DNA from: Elusimicrobia bacterium GWA2_62_23
GTDB lineage: Bacteria; Elusimicrobiota; Elusimicrobia; Elusimicrobiales; UBA9959
Assembly (NCBI GenBank): GCA_001799635.1
Contig: MGTV01000006.1
Coordinates: 1-42,036, forward strand
Length of the DNA stretch: 42,036 bases
Reading direction: 5' to 3'
Part shown: positions 30,604 through 31,887 of the stretch, one piece after another
How positions within the stretch are numbered: position 1 is the first letter of the stretch
How the letters are laid out: each line of letters begins with the position of its first letter
Translations under genes and position numbers: made by a program
Notes under the pieces: generated by a model
Database searches by the model: none
What the model saw: only the letters and a program-made list of their open reading frames with translations
What the model was told of the DNA's origin: nothing

Positions 30604-30742
30604 GTTTCCTCTATTTTATCATTTAGGCCCCTGCCCGCCCCCAGCGCCCCTCCCGAAAGCAGGCATATAGGCCCTTGGACCTATTCGCGCATAGGCCCTT
30701 TGGCCCTTGAGCAAAGTCAATGTAAGGGTAAACTATACATAG
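30604..30742. promoter_or_regulatory. Divergent promoter region with clustered TAGGCCC motifs
   Basis: Non-coding gap between the helicase gene (minus) and the leader of the metallo-beta-lactamase-fold gene (plus). It holds TAGGCCC at 30624-30630, 30668-30674 and 30692-30698, all in the same orientation. A TATACA -10 candidate lies at 30735-30740 with no strong -35. Confidence 0.45.
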
Positions 30743-30838
30743 TTGCCGTGTAATCCCCGGAATTGGCCGGGGAGCATCCACCTCCGGACCTTAATCCGGA
30801 TTCACCACGGCAAGCAGCAATACGCGGAGGTGGATATG
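30743..30838 (+). promoter_or_regulatory. Riboswitch-like leader with Shine-Dalgarno sequestration
   Basis: Two mutually exclusive folds can be drawn. Fold A is a three-way junction: P1 pairs 30743-30750 with 30806-30813, P2 pairs 30754-30760 with 30767-30773, P3 pairs 30783-30787 with 30796-30800. Fold B pairs 30776-30786 with 30825-30835, an 11-bp perfect helix that covers the GGAGG and every base up to the ATG at 30836. Fold B consumes the 5' strand of P3. This is the layout of a translational riboswitch or RNA thermometer. It matches no class I can recall. Confidence 0.6.
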
Positions 30839-31822
30839 CAACTCGTGACCAGTACCTCTCCAGCACCCGTAAAGCGCACCCTAATAGCGGCGGCATTCTT
30901 ATTGCTAGCCGTATTCCATTTTGCCCCCCAGGCGGCCGCCGCCCCGGCCCTCAGCCAGCTTATAGAGGCCGCCCCCGCGGTGGAGATCCCTTACGCGCCG
31001 CCCCCCGACAACGCCACCGTTTACACCCCGGCCCCGGGCCTCAACGTTTATTTCCTCAGCGTGGGCCAGGGCGACGCCGTCTACATCGAACTGCCCGGCG
31101 GCCGCAACGCCCTCATAGACGGCGGACCTTCCCGCACCTCCTCCTCCCCCCTGGCCAAGTTCCTGGCCGAGAAGAATATTACCGCTATAGACCATGTAGT
31201 GCTCACCCACCCCCACTCCGACCACTACAACGGCCTGCAGTACGTTTTCTCCACCATGACGGTGCGCAATTTCTACGACACCCGGGTGGACAACAAAGGC
31301 GCCACCGGCGACGACGCCGTGCGGGCCAAGGTAGCGGACTTGGGCATAAATACGGTCTACCCCTCGCCCGGGGACAACCTGGACTGGAGCGCCCCCGGGG
31401 TGGAAATAAAGGTCTTTAACGCCTGCGACAAGGCCTTCGCCTCTTCCAACAGCGAAACGCTCAACAACTGCTCTATCATGTTCAAGCTCACCTACCGCGG
31501 CTCCTCCATCCTCTTCACCGGGGACACCGAGGGCGAGACCGAGGCCATGCTGGCCGGCAAATACGGCGAAGAGCTCAAGGCCGACGTGCTGAAGGTGGGC
31601 CACCACGGCAGCAAATATTCCTCCTCCGACCTGTTCCTGGGCGCCGTGAAGCCCGCCAAGGCCTACATAGAGGTAGGCAAGAACAATTACGGCCACCCCA
31701 CGCAGGAAGCGCTGGGCCGCCTGCTCAACTCCGGCGCCAAGGTTTTCCGCACCGACCTGGACGGCACGCAGGAATTCTGCGTGGCCGGAGCCATGGAAGA
31801 GGTGGAGCTTCCCGCGCAATAA
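30836..31822 (+). CDS. Secreted ComEC-like metallo-beta-lactamase-fold hydrolase
   Basis: 328 residues with a signal peptide (about 1-38, ending AAAAPA). The rest is the metallo-beta-lactamase fold as found at the C terminus of ComEC/Rec2: LSVGQGDAVYIELPGG, IDGGPS, zinc site THPHSDHYNG, ILFTGDTEGE and VLKVGHHGSKYSSS. Stand-alone relatives hydrolyse nucleic acid or other phosphoesters; a secreted nuclease is plausible. There is no competence channel domain. The start at 30836 is fixed by GGAGG and the signal peptide; an earlier in-frame ATG lacks both. Expression may be governed by the structured leader just upstream. Confidence 0.9.
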   Translation: MQLVTSTSPAPVKRTLIAAAFLLLAVFHFAPQAAAAPALSQLIEAAPAVEIPYAPPPDNATVYTPAPGLNVYFLSVGQGDAVYIELPGGRNALIDGGPSRTSSSPLAKFLAEKNITAIDHVVLTHPHSDHYNGLQYVFSTMTVRNFYDTRVDNKGATGDDAVRAKVADLGINTVYPSPGDNLDWSAPGVEIKVFNACDKAFASSNSETLNNCSIMFKLTYRGSSILFTGDTEGETEAMLAGKYGEELKADVLKVGHHGSKYSSSDLFLGAVKPAKAYIEVGKNNYGHPTQEALGRLLNSGAKVFRTDLDGTQEFCVAGAMEEVELPAQ

Positions 31823-31855: not shown

Positions 31856-31887
31856 GAAGACCCCGACAGCGTGCTGTCGGGGTCTTC
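31856..31887. terminator. Long hairpin between convergent genes
   Basis: GAAGACCCCGACAGC (31856-31870) pairs perfectly with 31873-31887 (15 bp). It has no T-tract but is very stable and separates the hydrolase and SxtJ genes. Its core resembles the hairpin at 25725. Confidence 0.7.

Follow-up and report, generated by a model that had tools for sequence, protein, structure and literature searches.

The window analysed here, a 42,036-nucleotide stretch of contig MGTV01000006.1 from Elusimicrobia bacterium GWA2_62_23, carries on its forward strand a gene for a ComEC-like MBL-fold hydrolase. The gene is preceded by a leader with an aptamer of the purine-riboswitch type and a strand complementary to the Shine-Dalgarno (SD) sequence. 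The features of this locus, from 5′ to 3′, are listed below; MBL leaders are those of homologous genes, as defined in the next paragraph.

30669..30682, + strand: imperfect palindrome AGGCCCTTGGACCT, upstream copy, possible transcription-factor site
30693..30707, + strand: palindrome AGGCCCTTTGGCCCT, possible activator site adjoining the −35 hexamer
30707..30712, + strand: putative −35 hexamer TTGAGC, from hexamer comparison across MBL leaders
30729..30734, + strand: putative −10 hexamer TAAACT, 16 nt past the −35 hexamer and 8 nt ahead of the aptamer
30743..30813, + strand: 2′-dG-II aptamer (RF03165, 71/71 positions, 83.6 bits)
30743..30750, + strand: 5′ strand of P1, pairing with 30806-30813 through 8 Watson-Crick pairs
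30754..30760, + strand: 5′ strand of P2, pairing with 30767-30773; loop 30761-30766
30774..30782, + strand: J2/3 GCAUCCACC, junction of the ligand pocket and bulk of the anti-SD strand
30776..30786, + strand: anti-SD strand AUCCACCUCCG, complementary to 30825-30835
30783..30788, + strand: 5′ strand of P3, UCCGGA, pairing with 30795-30800; loop 30789-30794
30806..30813, + strand: 3′ strand of P1, from the fold, the Rfam alignment and covariation
30825..30835, + strand: SD and spacer CGGAGGUGGAU, the 11 bases before the ATG, complementary to 30776-30786
30836..31822, + strand: 328-aa ComEC-like MBL-fold hydrolase, HPHSDH at residues 125-130
31858..31886, + strand: 12-bp palindromic stem with a poor T tail, possible terminator, found by eye

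Only one family, RF03165 (2′-dG-II purine riboswitch), was matched in an Rfam scan of the whole 42-kb window at gathering thresholds. Positions 30743-30813 align to all of model positions 1-71 of 71 without gaps and with a posterior accuracy of 1.00, and score 83.6 bits (E 2.1e-20 for the 42-kb window) where the gathering cut-off is 60 bits. Judged by this match, the window leader is a member of the already known 2′-dG-II class of ligand riboswitches, and the class is not new. For comparison, 167 distinct leaders were assembled, 92 from the genus and 75 more; a ComEC-like MBL gene comes next after 36 of them (the MBL leaders), and 144 are exactly 71 nt long. Wherever a column is nearly invariant among these 144, the window has the commonest base. 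C30779, in a column that is C in 141 of them, is by our own mapping what we take to be position 51 of the purine-riboswitch numbering, where the guanine class has U. The bases required for the L2-L3 G-C tertiary pairs are present in the sequence as GG at 30765-30766 and CC at 30789-30790, and columns 23, 24, 47 and 48 are conserved in 134, 143, 132 and 143 of the 144 leaders, respectively. The junction end of P1 is formed by the pair G30750-C30806, found in 33 of 33 aligned MBL leaders, and J3/1 (30801-30805) fits the model gap-free, so that the two-nucleotide J3/1 insertion of the class is present. PMC8872408 describes the base at position 51 as important for the class, names the junction-proximal G-C pair of P1 and the G and C bases of the two loops as class features, and gives J3/1 as two nucleotides longer than in the other classes. 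We infer that the window leader binds 2′-deoxyguanosine.

The earlier note had proposed a riboswitch in which a three-way junction competes with SD sequestration, a proposal that fits the Rfam match as well as the leaders of homologous genes. As it had claimed, 30776-30786 are perfectly complementary to 30825-30835 up to the ATG, being the exact reverse complement, and an 8-bp P1 of Watson-Crick pairs closes the P1-P2-P3 junction, which is the minimum free energy structure of 30743-30838 (−36.4 kcal/mol, z −2.06; 7 of 200 shuffles equal or better). Its further statement that the anti-SD bases form the 5′ strand of P3 holds for 30783-30786, the four bases that the two strands have in common, and fails for 30776-30782, which belong to J2/3. 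That such folds exceed chance is borne out by the full-length Rfam match and by the leader's dinucleotide shuffles, none of 300 reaching an 11-bp complement (p 0.0033). Both pairings, whose conservation the note had made decisive, are kept in homologous leaders, the anti-SD helix with 9-10 of its 11 pairs. In sequence, then, strand 30776-30786 is usable either for the ligand pocket and P3 or for pairing with the SD. The calculated balance between the two folds shifts with the end of the RNA. The centroid of 30743-30838 is the anti-SD helix, and in forced-fold ensembles of RNA ending at 30838 the anti-SD fold is ahead by 0.9 kcal/mol; with coding sequence included, the aptamer is ahead by 1.6 kcal/mol (end at 30850) or 3.8 kcal/mol (end at 30868), and the lowest-energy fold contains the intact aptamer together with a helix between the SD and codons 7-10.

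Most leaders of the collection have one of two expression platforms. A Watson-Crick anti-SD helix of at least 8 bp is found in 30 of the 36 MBL leaders versus 2 of 120 others, and one of at least 9 bp in 27 of 36 versus 0 of 120, where 120 of the 131 non-MBL leaders were scored and the 11 without a recognisable J2/3 core were left aside; six of the 36 MBL leaders have no 8-bp anti-SD helix. Conversely, a terminator-like arm that takes the 3′ strand of P1 occurs in 95 of the 120 non-MBL leaders versus 3 of the 36 MBL leaders (L046, L098 and L196), and in the MBL leader L121 a terminator replaces the SD helix, as judged by eye. The count of 95 of 120 is probably an underestimate: no terminator was called in 25 of the scored non-MBL leaders, yet 11 of these have an arm of at least 11 complementary bases. 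The start codon is uncertain in MBL leaders L026, L142, L153, L164 and L204, and the spacer from aptamer to ATG ranges from 22 to 102 nt across 21 members from the genus. In 12 of the 36 MBL leaders, most of which have a long linker, the 3′ strand of P1 is complementary over 5-7 bp to the bases just before the SD, through complements that differ from leader to leader (CCACTG/CAGTGG, CCACTAG/CTAGTGG, CGGTAA/TTACCG); this pairing is absent from the window leader.

Covariation was assessed on 33 of the 36 MBL leaders, L121, L153 and L221 being omitted for want of an assigned start or SD-type leader. P1-P3 pair in 92.2% of cells, and 10 of their 21 pairs are changed on both sides; such changes fill 48 cells against 16.6 in shuffles, a number that none of 500 shuffles reached. 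The outer pairs of P1 are often non-standard (1/71 in 14 and 5/67 in 18 of the 33). For the anti-SD helix the share of paired cells is 91.1%, versus 36-54% in slid registers, and none of its pairs shows a compensatory change among the aligned MBL leaders; its eleventh pair (30786/30825) is standard in 13 of the 32 homologous leaders with letters there, and the inner ten in 26-33. Absence of compensatory change is to be expected if the ligand constrains one strand and the ribosome the other, and the anti-SD helix thus rests on its conservation and on the contrast between leader classes. The same absence, together with the constraint that the ribosome puts on the SD core, would suit the view that the second fold is a by-product, the aptamer's CACCTCC resembling the 16S anti-SD by chance and being able to pair with whatever strong SD follows. 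We consider this unlikely: in most MBL leaders the match includes TGGAT and extends as far as the ATG, and P3 starts with CTCC, CTTC or TTCC in all 36 of them, versus 11 of 60 other named or phylum leaders and fewer in the other classes of the genus.

The earlier note had left the choice between a ligand riboswitch and a thermometer open, and the choice now leans to the ligand, given a complete aptamer that belongs to a known class. An RNA thermometer, whose SD helix would melt with temperature and need no ligand, could draw on the anti-SD and aptamer folds lying within about 1 kcal/mol of each other at 30838; it is nonetheless highly improbable, since it accounts neither for a complete, covarying aptamer of a ligand-binding class nor for the terminators that follow the same aptamer elsewhere, which melting does not explain.

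Two groups of unusual aptamers were seen in the collection. Five variants (L080, L081, L085, L087 and L249) have GUGAAACGC or a close relative as J2/3. The four genus variants among them score 42-56 bits with RF03165, and a model built from these four found one further match (G071) at 91 bits in 59 family genomes, the next scoring 63 bits; the altered pocket may mean an altered ligand. In three genomes (L086, L090 and L091), the aptamers end after ..CCAC and run into a common unrelated sequence near contig ends, a break due to an inserted repeat or to an assembly effect.

Taken together, the leader is likely a 2′-dG-II riboswitch that acts as a translational ON switch for a probably exported ComEC-like hydrolase. 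Without ligand, the nascent RNA would refold so that 30776-30786 masks the SD and the gene is silent; 2′-deoxyguanosine, and possibly guanosine, would lock P1 and the junction and thereby free the SD. Nucleosides from degraded extracellular DNA would then induce more hydrolase, closing a positive loop of DNA scavenging, in which external DNA as the source of 2′-deoxyguanosine has about an even chance of being right. The sign of the switch is suggested by leader anatomy: the SD-sequestering and terminator platforms are unrelated and both predict that ligand means ON, so that the SD helix of the MBL leaders and the P1-3′-strand terminators of the sister leaders agree. Several points speak against this explanation: with coding sequence present, the folding model prefers the aptamer even unliganded; the anti-SD helix lacks compensatory change; outer P1 pairs are often non-standard; six MBL leaders have no 8-bp helix; the strict promoter scan was negative; and the metal motif of the hydrolase departs from that of ComEC. 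The predicted pairing of the SD with codons 7-10 alongside the aptamer also means that the SD may stay hidden when the aptamer is folded, as would be required if the ligand reduced expression. Such an OFF switch is nevertheless improbable: the codon 7-10 pairing was not seen as conserved, whereas that of the SD with the aptamer strand is, and sister leaders with terminators likewise predict ON.

Transcription of this leader has a putative start near 30743, as placed by the hexamers listed above. TTGAG occurs within 50 nt upstream in 27 of the 36 MBL leaders, and of the 36 MBL leaders examined, 34 have a hexamer pair scoring at least 7/12, which in 23 of them stands 8 nt ahead of the aptamer. 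A start downstream of 30786, which the earlier note had named as fatal to its reading, is thus disfavoured by the hexamers, but a stricter scan found no promoter. Directly 5′ of the hexamers lies an imperfect palindrome, AGGNCYNNNNGGNCCY, that is also seen upstream of other 2′-dG-II leaders and, by eye in similar form, ahead of the unswitched MBL paralogue L232. In a relaxed form, written after inspection of the data and applied to related sequences, the motif occurs in 35 of the 35 MBL leaders with enough upstream DNA and in 43 of 131 others, against a shuffled mean of 0.1 each. It is a possible site of a second, protein-based control. As a marker of a genome-wide regulon the palindrome was rejected, the strict pattern giving 11 strand-rows in the window's own genome versus 10 for a reversed-pattern control, hence no overall enrichment. 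The 11 rows correspond to nine places, two of them before 2′-dG-II aptamers (C6 and C41) and two others (C5 and C18) before secreted-looking proteins.

The 328-aa product begins with a signal-peptide-like stretch of about 36 residues, recognised by eye, and is probably exported. It matches Lactamase_B and misses the equivalog cut-off of TIGR00361 (ComEC/Rec2), with 107.5 versus 190 bits over model positions 440-663 only, and the Competence membrane domain is absent from it. By these matches it is a relative of one ComEC domain and not a ComEC. Its best structural relatives by sequence are the solved ComEC MBL domains (9ic4, E 1.3e-31), to which the family profile aligns with an E-value of 8.4e-43. 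The metal-site residues H125, H127, D129, H130, D230 and H257 are invariant in 21 of 21 sequences, and the Asn-containing motif III aligns with that of ComEC. The ComEC MBL domain is described in the excerpt of PMC8579336 as a Mn-dependent nuclease with the motif HxDxDH, in place of which the window hydrolase has HxHxDH. Nuclease activity is likely but not certain for the hydrolase, and this difference means that its activity may differ. The genome encodes a separate ComEC with the Competence domain and one more stand-alone relative (50% identity over residues 68-318), on whose contig no 2′-dG-II match was found. The earlier note had regarded a ComEC-like target as unusual for a riboswitch; this does not hold, as ComEC is already listed among the genes downstream of 2′-dG-II in the excerpt of PMC8872408.

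The window's own genome has six RF03165 matches over the cut-off. All 25 examined genomes of the genus (own included) have at least one match, and none of 16 genomes of the sister family has any; the 41 relatives together gave 92 matches, 80 of them over the cut-off. In a sample of the phylum, 69 of 294 genomes have a match over the cut-off, with up to nine matches per genome, and one f2 genome matches weakly (E 5.6e-5). Of the 14 genomes used as controls, Bacillus subtilis alone gives a match, below the cut-off, and the one Bacteroidota control genome has no match over it. An exact pattern, drawn from the own genus and so biased to near relatives, hits at least 114 stretches in named genomes; among the 114 matches listed, 98 are titled Elusimicrobia, -ota or -ales, 16 only 'bacterium' and none another phylum. 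A phage origin was rejected, the exact pattern giving 0 stretches in IMG/VR, and restriction to a single species was ruled out by the genus- and phylum-wide matches. At one place (L034/L092, G004:C300), two 2′-dG-II leaders lie on one strand 1.4 kb apart.

Several further kinds of gene follow these leaders. In the genus, the first genes include a secreted-looking 293-aa family without Pfam match after 19 leaders (alignment, 16 of the 19 members), and 13 genus leaders are followed by genes for peptides of 61-70 aa and then a radical SAM gene. A terminator-type leader, a 61-70-aa peptide and a radical SAM gene stand in this order at L003/L093 (C17 of the own genome) and 12 other genus loci, and the same peptide/radical SAM arrangement occurs at L099, L101, L110, L162, L207 and L216. 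The peptides have a conserved N-terminus, MTNKDKIIAAFLVS..., and may, as a lead only, be matured by the neighbouring enzyme, with both genes under a nucleoside riboswitch. The NCBIfam model that best fits the own genome's radical SAM protein is YydG peptide epimerase, at 46.7 bits against a cut-off of 300. At L004/L094 (C41 of the own genome), L083, L104, L108 and L201, the leader is followed by a peptide gene of 59-81 codons and a solute-binding-protein-like gene, assigned by Pfam SBP_bac_5 for L094 and L083 and by similarity of their starts for L104, L108 and L201. Phosphatase-like, trypsin-like or TPR proteins follow leaders at single loci. Uptake and use of deoxyguanosine are plausible, since genes for a nucleoside transporter of the CNT type, a deoxynucleoside kinase and two proteins of the PNP family are present in the own genome.

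The many co-regulated genes that have no link to DNA bear on a further reading, in which the fold is the same and the ligand or cue is another one, such as guanosine or an intracellular overflow of deoxyguanosine from nucleotide metabolism, not external DNA. 2′-dG-II aptamers are stated in the excerpt of PMC8872408 to recognise both deoxyguanosine and guanosine, and aptamer position 33 (C in the window) is variable among relatives. Pocket positions 34-39 and 63-64 agree with the class consensus, however, and the window target is a relative of a ComEC domain, which makes this reading the less probable one. Returning to deoxyguanosine from DNA, we suggest, still tentatively, that Elusimicrobiota use it to sense that DNA has been degraded or that neighbours have lysed. 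A multi-copy regulon with two unrelated ON platforms, often with a palindromic promoter site, would switch on an exported set of products: the ComEC-like hydrolase, at single loci a secreted protein resembling trypsin or a phosphatase, and small peptides beside radical SAM genes.

What is known of 2′-dG-II riboswitches is mainly their structure and a few target genes, and a phylum with many copies per genome is well suited to the question of why cells sense 2′-deoxyguanosine. If both platforms are ON switches, the regulated genes show the cell's response to deoxynucleosides. Literature searches on riboswitches in Elusimicrobi, on dG-II/2dG-II and on extracellular DNA gave no description of this regulon; the two primary papers on the class, Weinberg 2017 and Matyjasik and Batey 2019 (the latter cited in PMC9295807), may anticipate part of it. 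The class and the kind of target are already known, whereas phylum-wide multi-copy use and two ON platforms were not found described. The add riboswitch is a translational ON switch of the adenine type, in which ligand frees the SD. The window leader shares with it the common three-way junction scaffold of purine riboswitches and differs from it in pocket bases and ligand, and in using the J2/3-P3 strand itself to pair with the SD. The hydrolase corresponds in profile and sequence to the C-terminal MBL nuclease domain of ComEC, and differs from ComEC in standing alone, with a signal-peptide-like N-terminus and no Competence domain. With the 2′-dG-II class itself (RF03165), the window leader shares the full-length match, the pocket bases, the G-C pair at the P1 junction and the GG/CC loop bases. 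PMC8872408 assigns the class to Bacteroidetes; in the genomes examined here it recurs widely among Elusimicrobiota, with up to 9 copies per genome and with other secreted targets.
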